Positions 1 through 44,230 of a stretch of 64,000 nucleotides of DNA are shown here, in pieces. The translations under genes and the position numbers were made by a program. Below the pieces are notes generated by a model. The model saw only the letters and a list, made by a program, of their open reading frames with translations, did no database searches and was not told the DNA's origin. How positions within the stretch are numbered: the first letter of the stretch is position 1; each line of letters opens with the position of its first letter. Source of the DNA: Bacteroidia bacterium. Its GTDB lineage: Bacteria; Bacteroidota; Bacteroidia; AKYH767-A; OLB10. The stretch spans positions 1 to 64,000 of the forward strand of contig JAEUTI010000017.1 of NCBI GenBank assembly GCA_016788065.1, written 5' to 3'.

Positions 1-1973
1 CTGTAGCAGGAAATAAATCCTGATGAAAGATAGTTGCAACGGTTGGATACAAAAGTTCTCAGTTGCATAGCATTATTGTACCACTCCGTATACGTCCCGC
101 CCCAGCGGTTAGCCTGTGCGGTCATTTCAGGTGATAATAAATTAATGATGCTATCTAATTGGAACAACATATTATCGCAACTAAAAACAGTGTTCCATAA
201 ATCGATCTGACGATTCATGTAATACTGATCAAAATCCGGATTCGTACGTAGTTTATTGAGTAATTCAATGTGGCCTTCAGGATCGGATGAACCGGAAAGC
301 CCATCTACATCACAAGGCTCAGCATTGTAGGCAGTACTTGGTATACCTGTGTAATTAATATAATGATCGAAGGTGGCATCATTATCCCAAAGGATATAAC
401 CCCATTTTTGATGTGTTCCTGCAGGATTCAATCCTCTCCACCATCCCGTATTATAATTTAACCAGTCGGAACAAACCGTAAAAGCATTTACAATAACATA
501 ATCAGCCAGACTTGTAACATCGAGTCTATCGGACACATACTGGAAATTCGCTGGATTGGTCATGCTGTTGTTCATTGTATAATTATACAAAGTATTCCAG
601 TCAGTCAATGCCTGCTGTCCTCCATATTCAGCCCAGGTATTACCCCATGTTTCGATATACTGCAGATCATATTTTCCCTGACCATAATAGTAATCCGTAA
701 AATCGTGCTCATCCGGATTCTCTCTCAAGTCATACACACCCCAATAAGCACCATTCAGATAGATGATATATTTCACAGCTCTTCTGACATCGAGATTAAG
801 TCCACCTTGATCGGCAAGCATGTGAATATATGCATCACGGATATGTGCAGATCCTGCATTTGCAGGAGCATGATCGGCAGGATAGTTGTCGTCGCCGGCA
901 GCTCTCATTATAATGCGTTGGAAATTATCACGAAGTGATGTTGGGAAAATCTGCTCCTCGATAGAATGGTTATAACCCATTTCATCGCGAGAAACGAAAT
1001 CGAGACTTCGGTGGCTGTTTGCCCATGAATCTTGTCCGTGGCGATTAAATTCACCATAAGTTTTGGCTACACGTACACCAGCCATATCGAATAATTCAAA
1101 AGATCCTTTTGGTTCCAGATTACCGCTACCGTTAGCCAGTGTGGTTAATTGAGTTCCGGAAATAGATAAAACCGGGATAGTGTGTGAAACATTGATGAAA
1201 TAAGTTTCAAATTCAATGAAGCTTGGCAAGATTGCAGGATCAGAGCTTATGGTTATTGCTTTTACTACTTTAGTAGATGAAATTGTAAGCGGTGTAGTAT
1301 AAATTGGTGAAGCAGTTGTTGGTAATGAACCATCGATTGTATAATGAATATCAGCGCTTGGTTCATTGGTTGTAATGGCAACTGTAATTGAAGAGGGATA
1401 AAATCCGGCACCCAGACTAAAATCAGGGCGATCAGCATAATCATCATACGGAGCAGCAGCGTTGTTACTGGCATTGGGAGTAGGATTGGTGAAAATACTC
1501 CAGGAAGCAACACCGTTTAATGTTCTTCCATAAGAATGTCCCAATTGTGTTTTCTGGCTGATTGAAATATAGTCAACTATTACACCGGAGGGATTCGACA
1601 AAACGATAAACTCAGGATTGTTTTTAGTTTGAGTCATTTTGAAGTTGGTGTGCATATTCAAACCTGAAACTTCATCACGACCATCGGCCCAAAATCTCAA
1701 AAATCCATTAGCCCCTATGCTCACTGTTGCAGGAATCTGCCACTTCATATTGTTTAGGGAATCATCACTCAGATAATAACCTCCCAGATTCACTGCGGAA
1801 CCCCCGGCATTGTAAAGCTCTATCCAGTCACCATAATCGCCGTAATTGTCGGCAAATTGTGTTAAGTTAGAACATGAGTATTCGTTAATGACCACTTGAG
1901 CACCTGCATTGACTGAAATTAGCATAGCAGCTGATGCTAACCAGATTTTAAATGAGTAACAGATTTTAGGCAT
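1..1973 (-). CDS. Secreted LTD / CotH-kinase domain protein, 3' end outside the window
   Basis: The frame is open from an ATG at 1973 to the window edge, 657 codons without a stop. Residues 1-25 form a signal peptide ending in NAGAQ. A lamin-tail-like domain follows (NEYSC, DWIELYN, GGYYLSDD). Around residues 185-240 there is a chitobiase/hexosaminidase C-terminal-like segment (IHYTIDGSLPT). From about residue 250 comes a CotH domain, with RHGQDSW near 313, LNGAYWGVYDLREN near 430 and WDNDATF near 530. CotH proteins are atypical protein kinases first known from spore coats. In Bacteroidota this LTD-CotH layout belongs to large secreted proteins that usually end in a T9SS sorting domain, which here would lie outside the window. 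The substrate is unknown. Confidence 0.88.
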   Translation of the reverse strand, partial: MPKICYSFKIWLASAAMLISVNAGAQVVINEYSCSNLTQFADNYGDYGDWIELYNAGGSAVNLGGYYLSDDSLNNMKWQIPATVSIGANGFLRFWADGRDEVSGLNMHTNFKMTQTKNNPEFIVLSNPSGVIVDYISISQKTQLGHSYGRTLNGVASWSIFTNPTPNASNNAAAPYDDYADRPDFSLGAGFYPSSITVAITTNEPSADIHYTIDGSLPTTASPIYTTPLTISSTKVVKAITISSDPAILPSFIEFETYFINVSHTIPVLSISGTQLTTLANGSGNLEPKGSFELFDMAGVRVAKTYGEFNRHGQDSWANSHRSLDFVSRDEMGYNHSIEEQIFPTSLRDNFQRIIMRAAGDDNYPADHAPANAGSAHIRDAYIHMLADQGGLNLDVRRAVKYIIYLNGAYWGVYDLRENPDEHDFTDYYYGQGKYDLQYIETWGNTWAEYGGQQALTDWNTLYNYTMNNSMTNPANFQYVSDRLDVTSLADYVIVNAFTVCSDWLNYNTGWWRGLNPAGTHQKWGYILWDNDATFDHYINYTGIPSTAYNAEPCDVDGLSGSSDPEGHIELLNKLRTNPDFDQYYMNRQIDLWNTVFSCDNMLFQLDSIINLLSPEMTAQANRWGGTYTEWYNNAMQLRTFVSNRCNYLSSGFISCY

Positions 1974-2189
1974 GGGTTTATTTTTAGTTGGTTTAATGTT
2001 CAGGTAACAATTTATTAATGCAAAGTAAACAATTTTTTAAGACGGTATAAGTACACCATAGATGAACAATTAACATTTTTAGTAACGACCTCCTTTAATT
2101 ATCATAAATAGTTGATTATGAGTAACTTTACGTGATGTCACTAATTTGTATTATTTTTATAGCCAGTTTAAATACCTACTTGCCGACCT

Positions 2190-2624
2190 ATGAAAATCGA
2201 AGTTTTGCACACCTTGTATGACCCCAAAGGAGCTTGCCAGCCAATTTTTGACATCAGAACCAAAGTTTTTGTTGATGAACAGCAGGTTGACAGGTCGGAA
2301 GAATTTGATGGATTTGAATCAGGGAGTTTACATTATCTCGGCACCCTGGATGGAAAACCTGCAGGAACTGCTCGCTGGCGATTTACTGAAAAAGGAATTA
2401 AACTTGAAAGATTTGCAGTTTTAAAAGAATTCCGGAATAAGGGGGTTGCTGCAGCTGTTCTGCAACAGGTGCTTGCAGATGTTATACCATTTAAAAAACG
2501 CATTTACCTGAATGCGCAGGTCACTGCAATTGGCTTTTATGAGCGATATGGCTTTAAAAAAGAAGGGCCGATGTTTGTTGAAGCAAACATCGACCACTTT
2601 GTTATGACTTATAATCCGGAGTAG
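2190..2624 (+). CDS. GNAT family N-acetyltransferase (YjcF/ElaA-like)
   Basis: This is a 144-residue single-domain GNAT protein, the usual length. The acetyl-CoA loop is RNKGVA at 82-87, after the beta-strand LERFAVL at 72-78. FYERYGF at 117-122 is the typical C-terminal GNAT motif. The N-terminal segment with KVFVDEQ resembles YjcF/ElaA proteins. It would transfer an acetyl group from acetyl-CoA to an amine in the cytoplasm; the acceptor cannot be told from sequence. It stands alone and ends 3 bases before the converging gene at 2628. A weak -7-like TAACTTTA lies near 2120. Confidence 0.85.
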   Translation: MKIEVLHTLYDPKGACQPIFDIRTKVFVDEQQVDRSEEFDGFESGSLHYLGTLDGKPAGTARWRFTEKGIKLERFAVLKEFRNKGVAAAVLQQVLADVIPFKKRIYLNAQVTAIGFYERYGFKKEGPMFVEANIDHFVMTYNPE

Positions 2625-2627
2625 GAA

Positions 2628-3542
2628 TTACTTCAGCACTACCCGTTTTTCCTTAATCATTGAACCATTGGTTACTCTGAGTACATAATTTCCTTTTGAG
2701 ATTGAGCTGGAGCTGATAACAAACTCATTGCTTCCTGCTTTTGCTTCGAAATTATCAGTTACCAATTCGTTATCATCAATATCAGACAAAGACACTTTAA
2801 ATTCTGATTCCGAACCAGTATTAATTAATATCCTGAATGAACCATAACCATTTGGGAATACGTCAACTTCAGTATTTGCGCTCATAGCTGATTCGCATTT
2901 CACCTGAACAGGGTCTGAATATTCATATTTCCCTTTTCCAATTACTTTACGGAGGCGATAATATGCTGTTTCATCTTTCTCAGTTGCTTCCTCTATTGAA
3001 TAGAAGTTTTTACCTTCTTTTTTCTGAGGTTGCGGAGCTCTTGAAAACACTTCATAATGTACTTTATCGTAGGTCTTTTCAACCTCATAAGCGTATTTGG
3101 CGCCACCTTCAGTTACCCAGTTGAATAAAATAGATCCATTGTCACAACTTGCCTCAAAACTATGGAGTTCTTCTGCAATAGTTTTGGAGCCAAAAGAGCG
3201 TTCCATCATTTCAGCTTCAGTTGCCTTTTCATCAGGTTGTGCTTGTTTTGCAACCTGCTCCGGTGCATCATCAATGACGGGTTGTGCAGGCTCTTCAATA
3301 CGGTTTTCACTCAACAAGTTACTCACCTTGTCAGAAGATGCAGGTTCATCAAATGCTGACGGAGATGCCGCAGAAGCTTCTAATCGAACTTCCTGAACAA
3401 TAGGCTGTTCAGCAGTCGGACTTTTGGTTAACATCAGATATCCGGCCACAGCCAAAGCTGTGATAGCAATTCCTCCGGTGATATTCAGAACCTTGATGTG
3501 TTCCTTTATCTGTGTAATTTCGTTTTTGTCGTTTTTGTTCAT
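2628..3542 (-). CDS. Membrane-anchored protein with degenerate T9SS-like C-terminal domain
   Basis: This 304-residue protein has a short charged N-terminus, one transmembrane helix at about 22-40 (ITGGIAITALAVAGYLML), and a low-complexity Pro/Glu/Ala-rich linker to about 110. A fibronectin-III-like domain follows at about 120-215 (ILFNWVTEGG, YYRLRKVIGKG). The last 80 residues look like a T9SS type A sorting domain but begin FPNGYG instead of YPNPA, and end KRVVLK. The helix has no obvious cleavage site, so the protein may stay anchored in the inner membrane with its C-terminus in the periplasm. The family and function are not recognised. It is a single gene, convergent with the GNAT gene. 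Confidence 0.72.
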   Translation of the reverse strand: MNKNDKNEITQIKEHIKVLNITGGIAITALAVAGYLMLTKSPTAEQPIVQEVRLEASAASPSAFDEPASSDKVSNLLSENRIEEPAQPVIDDAPEQVAKQAQPDEKATEAEMMERSFGSKTIAEELHSFEASCDNGSILFNWVTEGGAKYAYEVEKTYDKVHYEVFSRAPQPQKKEGKNFYSIEEATEKDETAYYRLRKVIGKGKYEYSDPVQVKCESAMSANTEVDVFPNGYGSFRILINTGSESEFKVSLSDIDDNELVTDNFEAKAGSNEFVISSSSISKGNYVLRVTNGSMIKEKRVVLK

Positions 3543-3646
3543 AAAAATCTGGTAGAAGTGGATGAACTCGGTTTACGCCACCTACTTTGCAAAGGTTGCT
3601 CTGAATCAATCTTTAAATAGGGTGAAATAGCGCTCATACTTACATA

Positions 3647-3676
3647 TTGATTACAGGTCGGAAATCACGATCTTTG
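3647..3676 (+). promoter_or_regulatory. Predicted promoter of the MATE gene
   Basis: A -33 TTG at 3647-3649, a 19-base spacer and GATCTTTG at 3669-3676 match the Bacteroidota promoter with one mismatch. The box ends 13 bases before the ATG at 3690. Confidence 0.5.
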
Positions 3677-3689
3677 CCGACTCTTTTAC

Positions 3690-5021
3690 ATGAAAGTCAA
3701 TAATTCATACAGTCAGATATGGCAAATAGCCTACCCAATCATATTGGGAAGTCTGGCTACAACGGTACTAAATCTTACAGATACCGCTTTTCTGGCCAGG
3801 GTCGGGGAAGTGGAATTGGGTGCAATGGCAATCGCAGGAGTTGCCTATTTTGTCCTGGTTATGACCGGTATCGCATTGGGTACCGGAGCTCAAATCCTGA
3901 TGGCCCGTCGTGCCGGGGAAGGCAATTCACCGGAAATTGGTAGATTGTTTGATCATACCTTATTGCTGCTGTCAGTTATAGCCACTGGTATGTTTCTGAT
4001 TTTGAAGTTTGCTTCCCCCCCACTTTTAGAGGCCATTTTGAAATCAGCTAATGTTACGCAAGCATGCAATGACTATATTGGAATAAGAAGTTATGGGATC
4101 ATTTTTACACTGATCGCAATCGCTTTCCGTTCCTTTTATATTGGTATAAGCGTAACCAGAATTATAACTTATTCTGCCTTTATCATGATGGCAGTAAATG
4201 TGATTTTGGACTATGTCCTCATTTTCGGACATTATGGCTTCCCGGAAATGGGGATTAAAGGTGCTGCCCTGGCTTCTGTAATCGCAGAATTTACAGGTGC
4301 CGCTTACCTTATCATTTATTCATTTTTCAAAAAAGAATTCAGACAATTTAATCTGTTCCGTTTTCAAAACATGGGGATGGAGCGAATCAATGCAATTTTT
4401 AACATTTCTGCTCCTTTGGTTTTGCAAAATGGACTCTCTATGGGTGCCTGGTTCTTATTTTTCGTTTTCATTGAGAGAATGGGAGAACATGAGCTTGCAA
4501 TTTCGAATGTTATCCGGGCGACTTACATGATTCTAATGACTCCAATTTGGGGGTTTGCATCTGCTACCAACAGTATGGTAAGCAATATTGTTGGCCAGGG
4601 GAAACAACATGAAGTTAGAAGTTTGGTGCTGAAAATTGTCCAGCTGAGTATGATCACAACGGTGATTTTGTTTCTGGCAAGCCTCATTTCACCTCAATGG
4701 TTATTAAGAATCACCACCAACGATCAGCAATTAATTACAGATGCTTTGGGATGTTATTATATCATTGTCGGGGCCATGTTTTTATTTTCGGCAAGTGTAA
4801 TTTTGCTGAATGTCGTTTCAGGACTGGGTAATACCAAAGCTGCCATGTACATTGAATTGGTAAATATTTTCATATACATGACATACGTGTACATTTGTGC
4901 CGTAATCTTACAATCATCCATAGAATGGGTATGGTTTTCGGAGATTTTATATTGGGTTTTAATGGGATTATTTTCTTACTGGTATTTAACTTCAAAAAAA
5001 TGGAAACACGTAGAGTTATAA
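3690..5021 (+). CDS. MATE family efflux transporter
   Basis: The protein has 443 residues, the usual MATE length, with about twelve hydrophobic helices. The two halves of six helices each carry MatE features: QIWQIAYPIILGSLATT and TDTAFLARVGEVELGAMAIAG at the start of the first half, and ISAPLVLQNGLSMG and NVIRATYMILMTPIWGFASA in the second. MATE proteins are inner-membrane antiporters that export cationic drugs or metabolites using Na+ or H+ gradients. The substrate here is unknown. It heads a probable operon: the next lipoprotein gene overlaps its 3' end by 22 bases, and fmt follows. Confidence 0.92.
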   Translation: MKVNNSYSQIWQIAYPIILGSLATTVLNLTDTAFLARVGEVELGAMAIAGVAYFVLVMTGIALGTGAQILMARRAGEGNSPEIGRLFDHTLLLLSVIATGMFLILKFASPPLLEAILKSANVTQACNDYIGIRSYGIIFTLIAIAFRSFYIGISVTRIITYSAFIMMAVNVILDYVLIFGHYGFPEMGIKGAALASVIAEFTGAAYLIIYSFFKKEFRQFNLFRFQNMGMERINAIFNISAPLVLQNGLSMGAWFLFFVFIERMGEHELAISNVIRATYMILMTPIWGFASATNSMVSNIVGQGKQHEVRSLVLKIVQLSMITTVILFLASLISPQWLLRITTNDQQLITDALGCYYIIVGAMFLFSASVILLNVVSGLGNTKAAMYIELVNIFIYMTYVYICAVILQSSIEWVWFSEILYWVLMGLFSYWYLTSKKWKHVEL

Positions 5022-5329
5022 ATTCAATTATTACCCTGATTTGCTTAACTGCCACACTTGCCATTGGATGTAAATCCCCTGAAAAAACAGCGCATTCCCC
5101 AACCGAACCCGGCTCTGTTTCAGCGACGGTAATTGACATGCGTGAATTGGATGGCTGTACTTATTTGCTCGAATTGCAGGATGGCATGAAACTACAACCA
5201 ACTGCAATACCCGTGGAATATCAGCAAGCCGGCTTAAAAGTGAGGGTTAAGTATAAAAAAGTAGAAATTATGAGCATTTGCATGTCTGGTAACCCAGTGG
5301 AACTGACTTACATTAAAGCCGAAAAATAA
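5000..5329 (+). CDS. Small lipoprotein of unknown function
   Basis: From the ATG at 5000 the product is 109 residues. It starts with a charged METRR, then a hydrophobic stretch, and has a lipobox-like LAIGC at about 20-24, so it should be a lipid-anchored periplasmic or outer-membrane protein. The mature part has DGCTYLLELQDG near 53-64 and a KVRVKYKKVE strand. Small lipoproteins of this shape recur in Bacteroidota, but I cannot name a role. A reading from 4895 is possible but would add an unrelated segment overlapping the MATE frame and bury the signal peptide, so 5000 is preferred. It overlaps the MATE gene by 22 bases and lies 7 bases before fmt. Confidence 0.75.
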   Translation: METRRVINSIITLICLTATLAIGCKSPEKTAHSPTEPGSVSATVIDMRELDGCTYLLELQDGMKLQPTAIPVEYQQAGLKVRVKYKKVEIMSICMSGNPVELTYIKAEK

Positions 5330-5336
5330 ATCAGGT

Positions 5337-6290
5337 ATGAGAATCATTTTCTTAGGAACCCCGGCATTTGCAGTGCCATCACTCGATATCTTAGTTCAAA
5401 ATGGATATGATATTGCTGCAGTTATAACTGCTCCCGGAAAACAGGCTGGCAGAGGTTTGCAGGTGAAACAATCTGCGATTAAGGAATATGCCGATTCAAA
5501 AGGAATCAAAACCCTTCAACCCATTAAACTGAACGATCCTGAATTCCTTGAAGAGGTAAGATCCTTAAAGGCCGATTTACAAATAGTTGTCGCCTTCCGC
5601 ATGATGCCTGAAGCGCTCTGGAATATGCCACCCCATGGGACGGTTAACCTGCATGGCTCTCTGCTTCCAAATTATCGGGGTGCTGCTCCAATAAACAGGG
5701 CGATTATGAATGGTGAAAAAATGACCGGAGTAACTACCTTTTTTCTGAAGCATGAAATTGATACGGGAAATATTCTGTTCCGAACCGAAATTCCAATTGG
5801 ACCCGATACTACAGCCGGCGAATTACATGATGAAATGATGCATGTGGGGGCTGAACTAATACTAAAAACAGTGCAAGCAATTGAAAATGGCACAGCAGTT
5901 GAAACACCCCAGCAGAATTTTGTTAAAGATGGTGAAATATTAAAACCCGCTCCAAAACTGTTTCCTGAAGATTTCAAAATCAATTGGAATCATACTGCCG
6001 GTACCATTCATAATCAGATCAGAGGATTAAGTCCGTTCCCCGGAGCATTTACAGGGTTAACAGATCAGGCCGGAAACCGGATTCAACTTAAAATTTATCG
6101 GTCGCATTTATCAGGAATACCTTCATCTGATTTGCCTGGAACATTAAGTATCGATAAAGGTAAATTTTTCATTTCCTGCAATGGATCATTTCTTGAGGTT
6201 TTGGAATTGCAACAAGAAGGTAAAAAACGGATGGATGTTAAAAGTTTTTTATTGGGATTCAGAAAAGACAAAGGCTGGAAGGCAGAATAA
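5337..6290 (+). CDS. fmt: Methionyl-tRNA formyltransferase
   Basis: The enzyme formylates the amino group of Met-tRNA(fMet) with 10-formyltetrahydrofolate, which is needed for normal translation initiation. The 317 residues are the standard length. RIIFLGTPAFAVPSL opens the Rossmann-like domain. The catalytic set is visible: N104 and H106 in NLHGSLLPNYRGAAP, and D142 in HEIDTGNIL. The C-terminal domain from about 205 binds tRNA. It is the third gene of the MATE - lipoprotein - fmt group; the usual partner def is not next to it. Confidence 0.97.
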   Translation: MRIIFLGTPAFAVPSLDILVQNGYDIAAVITAPGKQAGRGLQVKQSAIKEYADSKGIKTLQPIKLNDPEFLEEVRSLKADLQIVVAFRMMPEALWNMPPHGTVNLHGSLLPNYRGAAPINRAIMNGEKMTGVTTFFLKHEIDTGNILFRTEIPIGPDTTAGELHDEMMHVGAELILKTVQAIENGTAVETPQQNFVKDGEILKPAPKLFPEDFKINWNHTAGTIHNQIRGLSPFPGAFTGLTDQAGNRIQLKIYRSHLSGIPSSDLPGTLSIDKGKFFISCNGSFLEVLELQQEGKKRMDVKSFLLGFRKDKGWKAE

Positions 6291-39660: not shown

Positions 39661-42150
39661 ATGCAACTAAAAAAACTACTATTTCTGCTTCTTGGCTATA
39701 CACTTTCTTTAACTGTTTCTTATGCCCAGGATCCTGTCCCAAAATCCTCTTCAGATATCCGCATCGATTTGCAAAAATTGAACACCGTTGGTACAGTTCT
39801 TTATGTAGCAGCCCATCCCGATGATGAAAACACACGACTTCTTTCTTACATGGCAAGGGAATTGAGCTTACAGACAGTCTACCTTTCACTAACACGTGGT
39901 GATGGCGGACAAAATCTGATCGGCAAAGAACAGGGGAGTGAGCTGGGAATGATCAGAACACAGGAACTTTTAGCTGCTCGCAGAATAGATGGTGCTGAAC
40001 AGTTGTTTACAAGAGCAAATGACTTTGGATATTCTAAAAATCCGGAAGAAACTTTTTCAATCTGGAAGGAAGAAGAAATATTAGCTGATGTTGTTTGGGC
40101 AATCAGGTTGACCAAACCAGATGTGATCATAAACAGATTCCCAACTACCGGCGAAGGTGGTCATGGACATCATACTGCATCAGCAATGCTGGCAGTTAAA
40201 GCTTTTCGCGATGCAGCCAATCCGTTGCGGTTTCCTGAACAATTAAAATTTGTGGATGTCTGGCAAGCCAAAAGAATCTTTCATAACAGTTTTACACCAA
40301 GAGGGCAAACCCCTACTGTTGTTCCCGGACAAATTACAATGGATGTTGGCACTTATAATCCTTTAACCGGCGAATCGTATGGCGAGATTGCGGCTAACAG
40401 CAGAAGCATGCATAAAAGCCAGGGATTCGGTGTTGCAAGAGCACGGGGACCAATAAAGGAAAACTTCCGAAAACTTGATGGTGATACGAACGTTACCGGA
40501 ATATTTGAAAATATTGATTTGACCTGGAACCGGATTGAAGGCGGCTCCAAAATAGGAACGATGATAGCACAAATCATTAAAGACTTCGATGACTATCATC
40601 CGGAGAAATCGGTTCAACCTTTAACACTGGTGCTCCAGGAAATAAGAAAGTTAAAGAATGGTCACTATAAATCGTTAAAAGAAAAGGAAGTAACCGAGTT
40701 AATTCTTGCATGCTCCGGTATGTGGATAGAAGCCAATACAGATGTCTTTCAGGCTACGCCGGGAGATTCGGTGCAACTCACAATAACTGCGATTGCCCGA
40801 CTGTCTGATCAAATTAAAATAAATTCTATTTCAATACCTGGAAAAGTAATTACTCATTCCAAATCTGCTCTCAAAAATGAACCTGTCACTGTTGTAGAAA
40901 AAATCCACATTCCCGGCGACACTCCGGTTTCTCAGCCATATTGGTTAACCAAACCTCATGGAATTTCATCTTTTAATGTTTCCGACCAGCAAATGATTGG
41001 AAAACCATGGAATGATGCTGCTTTTAATGCAACTTTTGATATGGAAGTTTATGGCGTAAATATTAAAACACAAAAACCTGTAAACTACAAGTTCACCGAT
41101 CCTGTTAAGGGCGAAAAATACAGGAACTTTGATATTATTCCTGCTATTTCCATTGCTCCTCTTGACAGAAATCTTTTGGTTACCAATTCGAATCCTCAAA
41201 AATTTAAGGTTCAGGTAAATTTATCCGGAAAAAGTTTCAATGGCAAACTGGTTTGCAAAGCGCCAGCAGGATATAAAATAAACCCAACTGAAATACCGAT
41301 TCAACTTAGTGCTACGAATGCTATGATAACTTCAGAATTCACCTTGATTCCTGATAACAGTAAAAGCAATTCTGCAACAGATAAAATTATTTCAATTGAA
41401 GCAATTGAAAACGGTAAAGTATTTCAGCATCAGGTTAACAAAATTGATTATGATCATATTCCACCACTTTTCAGTTTGGAAGAAAGTAAAATTAAAATTG
41501 TCTCCTTCGATCTTAAAACCACTGTTAAAAAAATCGGATACATCGAAGGTCCCGGGGATGATGTTGCTGCTTCTTTAAAACAAGCCGGACTTGAAGTAGT
41601 AATTCTGGATGACGAAAAATTACTCACCGCAAATCTGAATGAATTTGGAGCAATTATTACCGGAATCAGGGTTTATAATACGAACGAAAAAATGGATGGG
41701 TATTATGAGAGACTGATGAATTATGTGGAACAGGGAGGAACATTAATCGTTCAGTATAATACCAATAATTTCATTAGTAAAGTTGGCGAGCAAATAGGCC
41801 CCTACCCTTTTAAGGTTGGAAGAGAAAGAGTAACAGATGAAAAGGCAGCAGTTACTTTTCTTAAACCGGAACATAAACTGTTAAATACACCTAATGCAAT
41901 TACAAAAAATGATTTCGACAATTGGGTTCAGGAGCGGGGTCTGTATTTTGCAAGTGAACCTGCGAAAGAATATGAAACCATTTTAAGCTGGAGTGATCCG
42001 GGTGAAAAACCTTTGGAGGGGGGATTAATTGTTGCATCAAAAGGTAAAGGACATTTTATATATACCGGCATCTCATTCTTCCGCCAATTACCTGCCGGAG
42101 TTCCCGGAGCATACCGGTTAATGTTTAATTTAATTAATGCTTCAAAATAA
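39661..42150 (+). CDS. Exported PIG-L family deacetylase with extra C-terminal domains
   Basis: The 829-residue product has a signal peptide (about 1-21, TVSYAQ). The N-terminal 280 residues are a PIG-L deacetylase with the zinc motif AAHPDDEN near 48-55 and the distal GEGGHGHHTASAM near 161-173. PIG-L enzymes remove N-acetyl groups from GlcNAc-type sugars or thiol precursors. The middle is an unassigned beta-rich region. Residues about 630-825 resemble a ThuA/GATase-like fold (GPGDDVAASLKQAGLEVVILDD, YYERLMNYVEQGGTLIVQYN). Export suggests work on extracellular or periplasmic glycans. A small peptide gene and an SSS symporter follow in the same direction. Confidence 0.88.
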   Translation: MQLKKLLFLLLGYTLSLTVSYAQDPVPKSSSDIRIDLQKLNTVGTVLYVAAHPDDENTRLLSYMARELSLQTVYLSLTRGDGGQNLIGKEQGSELGMIRTQELLAARRIDGAEQLFTRANDFGYSKNPEETFSIWKEEEILADVVWAIRLTKPDVIINRFPTTGEGGHGHHTASAMLAVKAFRDAANPLRFPEQLKFVDVWQAKRIFHNSFTPRGQTPTVVPGQITMDVGTYNPLTGESYGEIAANSRSMHKSQGFGVARARGPIKENFRKLDGDTNVTGIFENIDLTWNRIEGGSKIGTMIAQIIKDFDDYHPEKSVQPLTLVLQEIRKLKNGHYKSLKEKEVTELILACSGMWIEANTDVFQATPGDSVQLTITAIARLSDQIKINSISIPGKVITHSKSALKNEPVTVVEKIHIPGDTPVSQPYWLTKPHGISSFNVSDQQMIGKPWNDAAFNATFDMEVYGVNIKTQKPVNYKFTDPVKGEKYRNFDIIPAISIAPLDRNLLVTNSNPQKFKVQVNLSGKSFNGKLVCKAPAGYKINPTEIPIQLSATNAMITSEFTLIPDNSKSNSATDKIISIEAIENGKVFQHQVNKIDYDHIPPLFSLEESKIKIVSFDLKTTVKKIGYIEGPGDDVAASLKQAGLEVVILDDEKLLTANLNEFGAIITGIRVYNTNEKMDGYYERLMNYVEQGGTLIVQYNTNNFISKVGEQIGPYPFKVGRERVTDEKAAVTFLKPEHKLLNTPNAITKNDFDNWVQERGLYFASEPAKEYETILSWSDPGEKPLEGGLIVASKGKGHFIYTGISFFRQLPAGVPGAYRLMFNLINASK

Positions 42151-42156
42151 TCCAGC

Positions 42157-42279
42157 TTGGAAACACCTGAATCTAAACCACCTTTATTTAATTCCTGGCA
42201 AGGCTGGTATTCAACTGTCCTTTTAATATTGTTGGTGCAAATTATTATTTACCTTTTAATCACCCGTTCATTCCAATGA
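42157..42279 (+). CDS. 40-residue single-helix membrane peptide, likely symporter partner
   Basis: A TTG-initiated frame of 40 codons fills the space between the deacetylase and the symporter. It reads METPESKPPLFNSWQGWY, then a hydrophobic helix (STVLLILLVQIIIYLLITRSF), and ends in TGA, which overlaps the symporter ATG as ATGA. The N-terminal F-x-x-W-x-x-WY followed by one helix is a pattern I recall beside SSS symporters in Bacteroidota, like the small partner subunits of other SSS carriers (recollection, unverified). Translational coupling and the absence of any other open frame in the gap support it. It may be an accessory subunit of the symporter. Confidence 0.7.
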   Translation: METPESKPPLFNSWQGWYSTVLLILLVQIIIYLLITRSFQ

Positions 42280-43973
42280 GTATTATAGATTGGTTGGTTT
42301 TGATCGGAACATTGGTTTTTATTACCTGGTATGGTATTCGTAAAAGCCGTGGTAGCAAAAACATAGAAGGCTATTTATTAGGAAATAAAACTTTACCCTG
42401 GTACACAGTCGGATTAAGCATCATGGCCACTCAGGCAAGTGCCATCACATTTTTATCCGCTCCCGGACAAGCATTCACCGATGGCATGCGTTTTATTCAA
42501 TTCTACTTTGGACTGCCCCTTGCCATGGTTGTGCTCAGCATTACGGTAGTTCCAATTTTTCATCGATTAAAAGTGTTCACCGCTTATGAATATTTGGAGA
42601 ACAGATTCGATTTGAAAACGAGATCTCTAGGTGCATTTTTGTTTTTGATTCAAAGAAGTCTCGCTGCCGGTTTAACCATTTATGCTCCTGCCATTATTCT
42701 TTCTTCTTTGTTAGGATGGAATATTTACCTGACCAACATTTGCATTGGTGGAATTGTAATTATTTATACTGTTGCCGGAGGCACCAAAGCTGTGAGCTAT
42801 ACACAAACCGGACAAATGGTAATTATTTTATCTGGAATGGCTTTGGCAGGAATTATTTTGTTTCGGATGTTGCCGGATTCACTCTCATTTGGTGATGTAA
42901 TTACTATTGCTGGCCATAGCAACAAATTGAATTTGGTTGATACATCTCTTGAAATAAATAATCGGTATAATTTATGGTCGGGATTAATTGGAGGATTTTT
43001 TCTCGCCCTCTCCTATTTTGGCACTGACCAATCCCAGGTCGGGCGCTATTTGTCAGGCAGCTCCATAACGCAAAGCCGGCTTGGATTACTATTTAATGGA
43101 ATCGTTAAAATTCCAATGCAAATGGCGATTCTGTTTATTGGTGCTTTACTTTATGTGTTTTATATGTTCGTTCCGCAACCGGTATTTTTTAATTCGGTCG
43201 AGACCAACAAATTAAAGAATAGTGCTTATGCCTCCGAATATTATGCAATAGAATCTGAGTTCAATGCTTTGCAATCGGCTAAAAGAGAAACTACGCTTGA
43301 ACTGTTGGATGCTGTGAAGTCTGACAATTCAGAATTGATTGCACAGAAAAAGGAAATCATAAGATCTCAACAAAAAAGTCAGGAATCGATTCGAAATAAT
43401 TTAAAAGTAGTTATAAAGGAAAATGATAAACTGGCTGATACCAATGATGTCAATTATATCTTCCTTCGATTCGTAACAGACTATCTACCGGTAGGTATAA
43501 TCGGATTAATTATTGCTGTAATTTTCGCTGCCTCCATGTCGTCCACATCGTCTGAACTCAATGCCCTTGCTTCAACTTTTGTAGTAGACATATATAAACG
43601 AAGCCTTCACAAAGAAGGCGATTCAACACATTACCTGAATGCATCCCGCTGGGCAACTATTGGATGGGGAGTATTTGCAATTGGAATTGCTATGTTTGCC
43701 GGTAAATTGGGTAGCTTAATTGAAGCGGTCAATATTTTAGGCTCCATCTTTTATGGCACCATCCTGGGAATTTTTCTCACAGGTTTTTATCTGAAGCACG
43801 TAAAAGGAAATGCCGTTTTTATTGCTGCAGTTATTGCTGAATGCGTTGTAATTGTATGTTACAATTTTACCGAGATCTCTTTCCTTTGGTATAATGTAAT
43901 AGGCTGTTTGCTAGTCATGATTCTGGCAATGTTAATTCAAAGCATCTCCAAACCCAAAACTGCTAATCCGTAA
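42276..43973 (+). CDS. Sodium:solute symporter (SSS family)
   Basis: The 565-residue protein has about thirteen membrane helices of the LeuT fold. ATQASAITFLSAPGQAF near 51-67 and FAASMSSTSSELNALAST near 417-434 are the SSS sodium-site motifs. Unlike most members it carries a charged, probably coiled-coil insert of about 90 residues (304-395) in a loop after a mid-protein helix, rich in Glu, Lys and Gln. The substrate is not predictable, but the neighbouring deacetylase suggests a sugar, amino sugar or acetate. The start codon overlaps the stop of the 40-residue peptide gene. Confidence 0.92.
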   Translation: MSIIDWLVLIGTLVFITWYGIRKSRGSKNIEGYLLGNKTLPWYTVGLSIMATQASAITFLSAPGQAFTDGMRFIQFYFGLPLAMVVLSITVVPIFHRLKVFTAYEYLENRFDLKTRSLGAFLFLIQRSLAAGLTIYAPAIILSSLLGWNIYLTNICIGGIVIIYTVAGGTKAVSYTQTGQMVIILSGMALAGIILFRMLPDSLSFGDVITIAGHSNKLNLVDTSLEINNRYNLWSGLIGGFFLALSYFGTDQSQVGRYLSGSSITQSRLGLLFNGIVKIPMQMAILFIGALLYVFYMFVPQPVFFNSVETNKLKNSAYASEYYAIESEFNALQSAKRETTLELLDAVKSDNSELIAQKKEIIRSQQKSQESIRNNLKVVIKENDKLADTNDVNYIFLRFVTDYLPVGIIGLIIAVIFAASMSSTSSELNALASTFVVDIYKRSLHKEGDSTHYLNASRWATIGWGVFAIGIAMFAGKLGSLIEAVNILGSIFYGTILGIFLTGFYLKHVKGNAVFIAAVIAECVVIVCYNFTEISFLWYNVIGCLLVMILAMLIQSISKPKTANP

Positions 43974-44195: not shown

Positions 44196-44230
44196 AAAAA
44201 AAAAGCCGGCTCTCAGCCGGCTTTTTTTTT
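44196..44230 (-). terminator. Bidirectional rho-independent terminator
   Basis: GCCGGC at 44205-44210 pairs with GCCGGC at 44216-44221 around TCTCA. It is flanked by nine A on the left and nine T on the right, so it can stop both the symporter and the DUF2911 transcripts. Confidence 0.88.

Follow-up and report, generated by a model that had tools for sequence, protein, structure and literature searches.

A predicted single-helix membrane peptide encoded directly before an SSS symporter in Bacteroidota and other bacterial groups

The frame and its neighbors

The window analyzed here is a stretch of 64,000 nucleotides from a Bacteroidia bacterium (contig JAEUTI010000017.1). Between a gene for a PIG-L family protein (PF02585, E = 1.4e-14) and a gene for a sodium:solute symporter of the SSS family it holds a 40-codon frame at 42157-42279 on the forward strand, with a TTG start and a TGA stop at 42277-42279, whose translation after the initial (M) is ETPESKPPLFNSWQGWYSTVLLILLVQIIIYLLITRSFQ. 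A sequence-only reading had described this frame as a membrane peptide filling the gap between a PIG-L deacetylase and an SSS symporter and ending in an ATGA shared with the symporter start. The frame, the families of its neighbors (PF02585 and TIGR00813) and the junction, with the symporter ATG at 42276, are all confirmed. The frame begins 6 nt past the end of the PIG-L gene, and only TTG can serve as the start of a full-length frame, since the PIG-L TAA (42148-42150) closes the reading frame 6 nt upstream. The symporter exceeds the cut-offs of PF00474 (129.5 bits) and TIGR00813 (222.6 bits, E = 9.4e-66). All three genes are on the forward strand, as are the features below.

39661-42150, forward: PIG-L family protein, 829 aa, with an apparent signal peptide (PF02585); a frequent operon neighbor rather than the peptide's probable partner.
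42157-42279, forward: peptide gene (40 residues, one membrane helix; starts with TTG, stops with TGA), recognized by homology, selection and profile match.
42178-42183, forward: conserved Pro-Pro codons (residues 8-9, from the peptide alignment), probably on the cytoplasmic side.
42196-42210, forward: W-x3-Y motif codons (W14, Y18), the motif being present in 177 of 184 peptides.
42208-42264, forward: predicted transmembrane helix (residues 18-36) with its conserved positions on one face; a helix is also present in the model of the L197 orthologue.
42276-42279, forward: ATGA, overlap of peptide stop and symporter start; 64 of 106 loci in one set and 73 of 78 in another overlap by the same 4 nt.
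42276-43973, forward: SSS (SLC5-type) sodium:solute symporter, 565 aa, the likely partner (PF00474, TIGR00813; orthologue model).
44196-44230, forward: strong terminator-like hairpin 3' of the symporter (hairpin scan).

No terminator-like hairpin was found between the PIG-L, peptide and symporter genes and no Rfam match in the intervals between them, the only strong hairpin lying past the symporter; a single transcript is therefore likely. With a family profile built from 184 sequences, the window peptide itself among them, the frame scored E = 6e-14 and every other open stretch of the 64-kb window no better than E = 0.5, which puts the frame far beyond chance. The whole home genome has one copy of the peptide gene.

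Inheritance with the symporter

The symporter was traced in 61 related genomes and in 395 genomes of the phylum, 143 of which have a match at E<=1e-100, and the upstream DNA was read. The sequence-only reading had named a homologous frame upstream of orthologous symporters as a check on its proposal, and such a frame is present. In a first set of loci a homologous one-helix ORF stands directly upstream of 106 of 116 orthologous symporters; the overlap is exactly 4 nt in 64 of the 106, the remainder lying in other frames or at other distances. These candidates had been pre-selected on hydrophobicity and place, so their E-values are flattering, and a second, named set and a whole-genome search are free of such selection. 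In the named set, which shares at least one genome with the first (L009 = L125), the profile finds the ORF at 80 of 80 symporters: 78 adjoin the symporter, 73 of them through a 4-nt ATGA overlap, and two lie further upstream, by about 190 nt in L172 and by 3.7 kb in L133. Among the 16,256 open stretches of this set, on both strands, the profile matches nothing else except a partial repeat copy in L172. The named loci include Ignavibacteria (L164, L183, L189, L200), Calditrichia (L197), Thermoanaerobaculia (L155), Aminicenantes (L133) and Eisenbacteria (L186). The arrangement of a peptide gene directly before the symporter thus extends across Bacteroidota and to members of five or more further bacterial groups. 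Since the spacing varies, from the 4-nt overlap through 0-90 nt to about 190 nt and 3.7 kb, the peptide is more than a feature of the symporter start site.

About 5% of the orthologous symporters have no peptide (for example L014, L075, L079, L093, L094 and L121), so some lineages can dispense with it. In the alignment of symporters, those without a peptide showed no extra terminal helix as a substitute. Three loci of family f60 (L096, L097, L118) encode more distant symporters of about 42% identity with a one-helix ORF of 38-42 aa at the equivalent place; the profile fails to recognize this ORF (E 0.5-7), which is either a diverged homologue or a replacement. Plasmid records gave no match to the symporter.

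The search of the 61 whole genomes separates the two neighbors. Of the 30 genomes with an orthologue, 27 have a single peptide copy, next to the symporter (25 of these at E<1e-3), and none was found in the 31 genomes lacking one, though nearly all carry other SSS paralogues. In one of the three orthologue-bearing genomes without a peptide match (G040) the symporter is truncated at a contig end. PIG-L is just upstream in 77 of 116 first-set and 64 of 80 named loci, but 17 PIG-L genes situated away from the symporter, or in genomes lacking it, were all without a peptide. Where PIG-L lies in another place or is missing, the peptide remains with the symporter; many genomes with a peptide have no PIG-L at E<=1e-60. 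The linkage to the symporter proposed for the window holds: the peptide is inherited with one SSS subfamily and not with the PIG-L enzyme.

Several loci depart from the usual order. In L202 (G087:C19:30000-33500) PIG-L precedes a peptide that looks intact (1427-1543), after which no more than a short piece of the symporter's C-terminal end is left; this is a decaying locus, and the only symporter-less genome with a peptide still holds a fragment of the symporter. In the Aminicenantes locus L133 (Candidatus Aminicenantes CP070750, positions 1-5692) the peptide stays next to PIG-L, with the symporter 3.7 kb away, and the order on one strand is PIG-L tail, peptide, BshC/BshB1/BshA (assigned by eye) and symporter. 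This order is a hint that the PIG-L/symporter module may be connected with bacillithiol. No bsh genes lie within about 4 kb of the other 79 named loci, and co-occurrence with bacillithiol synthesis is uninformative, BshC being present in 384 of 395 genomes. A read-through tail of PIG-L is ruled out as the source of the peptide by a relative frame that differs among loci (L006 and L015 vs the window) and by the PIG-L genes without a peptide. Loci of Sphingobacteriaceae and Chitinophaga contain a second small ORF after PIG-L and before the peptide, of 55-70 aa in most cases and with two glycine-rich hydrophobic helices (L134, L135, L144, L151, L154, L158, L160, L162, L171, L174, L176, L179, L184, L187, L191 and L196).

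The peptide and its carrier

Conservation relative to synonymous sites, the other check named beforehand, was also found: pooling 29 independent close pairs of peptide genes gives a dN/dS of about 0.16, and we read the frame as a conserved protein-coding gene under purifying selection. The peptides are typically 32-55 aa long and have one hydrophobic helix. The helix had first been placed after an F-x-x-W-x-x-WY stretch; the single helix stands, and the motif is better given as W-x3-Y preceded by Pro-Pro, the second W of WY being common and not invariant. Of 184 peptides, 177 have W-x3-Y at the start of the helix, Pro-Pro lies 5-6 residues ahead of the W in most members, and the stop follows 27 residues after the W (W counted) in 139 of 160 non-redundant members with the motif. 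Information peaks at positions 0, 4, 7, 11, 15, 18, 22 and 25 from the W (W, Y, V, L, I, F, T and F), and the Fourier power across the helix is maximal at 100 degrees, the angle of an alpha-helix. The conserved spacing and this maximum show that one face of the helix is constrained, as in the packing of a helix on another protein. The N-terminal flank carries about 2.9 K/R per peptide, mostly near the membrane, and the C-terminal end has few; by the positive-inside rule the N terminus is thus probably cytoplasmic and the C terminus periplasmic.

The Calditrichia locus L197 offers a natural tether for a joint model, as its peptide and symporter are in one frame and the stop can be read as a Gly residue. 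The tethered AlphaFold2 model, made with a block alignment of 61 rows, has a mean pLDDT of 87.4 and a pTM of 0.83 overall, and its peptide part is one helix (residues 23-47). Structure comparisons aligned the symporter part alone (residues 50 onwards), which has the SSS fold (SiaT: Z 42.1, rmsd 2.6, 466 residues) and also aligns to NIS, SMCT1 and SGLT1/2. The SGLT match ends at about residue 551, so the modeled orthologue has 13 helices (TM0-TM12, counted by reading the helices) and no TM13. In the window symporter an insertion separates TM7 from TM8 (about residues 302-392, window 43177-43452); it is charged-rich, poorly conserved among orthologues and probably a periplasmic coiled coil. The symporter of L028 (G042:C56) is extended at its C terminus by about 234 residues that are absent from the other 191 aligned proteins.

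Covariation between peptide and symporter was scored by mutual information, by mean-field DCA and with clade-restricted shuffles, an underpowered analysis in which the overall maximum was within the null and the sole pair common to all three treatments joined peptide position 21 to the TM5-TM6 periplasmic loop (residue L218 of the window symporter); other pairs differed by method. A pairing of the periplasmic end of the peptide with this loop would agree with an N-in topology, as an exploratory result and not as proof.

Function and comparison with known systems

We consider the peptide most probably a single-helix accessory subunit of the adjoining SSS symporter subfamily, with a probability of roughly 0.75 on the sequence evidence. 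Translational coupling through ATGA would let the peptide be made just before, and near, the symporter. With its N terminus in the cytoplasm and its short C terminus in the periplasm, its conserved face could pack on the 13-helix bundle of the symporter as an extra helix, which, by analogy with the MAP17 helix of human SGLT2, may help to fold, stabilize or tune the carrier. A bolder version, which we hold only tentatively and rate below even odds, is that this widespread subfamily is an obligate two-component carrier. The microprotein of about 40 residues and a single pass would then supply the extra helix in trans, with its W/Y face packed on the bundle, and be required for stable or active transport; by analogy it would be an independently arisen bacterial counterpart of SGLT2-MAP17.

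Three other explanations rank below an accessory subunit. The first of them in probability, and still an unlikely one, is a conditional small regulator that inhibits or stabilizes the carrier as MgtS does PitA or AcrZ does AcrB. Small transporter regulators of 31-49 aa exist (PMC10710835) and some lineages have lost the peptide, but peptide and symporter apparently share one operon, the peptide coming immediately first, and are probably translated in a coupled manner, which fits a stoichiometric subunit better than a conditional regulator. Somewhat less probable is a leader whose translation unwinds the symporter start while the peptide itself has no job. The ATGA overlap is indeed the commonest arrangement, and Bacteroidota use few Shine-Dalgarno sites. 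However, such a leader sits poorly with amino acids conserved over synonymous sites, with a W and Y kept across several phyla and a helical periodicity, with a peptide that persists across the two widest gaps, and with the lack of a known RNA element at the site (Rfam).

Least probable, at a very low rating, is that the peptide anchors the secreted PIG-L enzyme in the membrane or works with it, rather than with the symporter. PIG-L is just upstream in most loci and the L133 peptide follows PIG-L rather than the distant symporter, but no peptide stands next to any of the 17 PIG-L genes located away from the symporter, peptide-symporter pairs occur in many genomes without PIG-L at E<=1e-60, and even the symporter-less L202 retains a symporter fragment.

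If the peptide is an accessory subunit, a microprotein family without a Pfam-A or NCBIfam entry would join the conserved proteome of Bacteroidota, and expressing this symporter subfamily alone may mean expressing half a complex. It would also offer a simple bacterial model for the question posed by SGLT2-MAP17, the role of one extra helix in a LeuT-fold symporter (SSS/SLC5).

No covering family for the peptide was found in Pfam-A, NCBIfam, PHROGs or PDB sequences, where scattered matches of single members were of a generic hydrophobic kind, and our literature search found no paper describing it. A review of prokaryotic SSS carriers leaves subunits and accessory proteins unmentioned (PMC7918813). 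Among small proteins that bind transporters, AcrZ and MgtS (31-49 aa; PMC10710835) resemble the peptide in size. They too are one-helix partners, and differ in serving other transporter families. Microproteins of this type are mostly encoded away from their transporter.

Closer in partner are the small membrane proteins encoded with SSS carriers. The YhdT gene overlaps the start of panF, the E. coli pantothenate symporter gene (SSS), by 10 nt (PMC5120140), and ActP is clustered with a 72-aa protein of the DUF485 family (PMC6692424). YhdT resembles the peptide in that its gene, too, codes for a small membrane protein and runs into the start of an SSS gene, and DUF485 (YjcH) with ActP and DUF4212 (VC_2706) with VC_2705-type SSS resemble it as small membrane proteins encoded with the carrier; the DUF485 and DUF4212 subunits have 72-100 aa, in contrast to about 40 residues here, and the SSS subfamily differs. 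YhdT is about twice as long as the peptide, and it and the DUF485 and DUF4212 subunits have two helices. The window peptide has no match to DUF485, DUF4212 or DUF997 (YhdT), and at E<=10 the family matches listed for 73 members include none of the three (for Pfam the best 25 of 43, in which the YhdT family does not appear). One helix and a typical 32-55 aa likewise depart from the two-helix build of about 70-100 aa of these three families, and the window symporter scores 55.5 bits, below the 320.75 cut-off of TIGR03648 for VC_2705-type SSS.

In eukaryotes, SGLT2 has an essential auxiliary subunit, MAP17, whose single helix lies against TM13 (PMC10803289). Like the peptide, MAP17 (PDZK1IP1) of human SGLT2/SGLT1 is a single transmembrane helix serving an SLC5/SSS carrier; no sequence relation was found when the peptide profile was run against solved chains (none above chance, the best an unrelated protein at E = 0.28). 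MAP17 is longer than the peptide, it is eukaryotic and its gene is not beside that of its carrier. It contacts TM13 of SGLT2, whereas the symporter orthologue modeled here lacks that helix. Small subunits of SSS carriers are already known in MAP17, YhdT and DUF485, and the peptide, half their size and with one helix, matches none of them.
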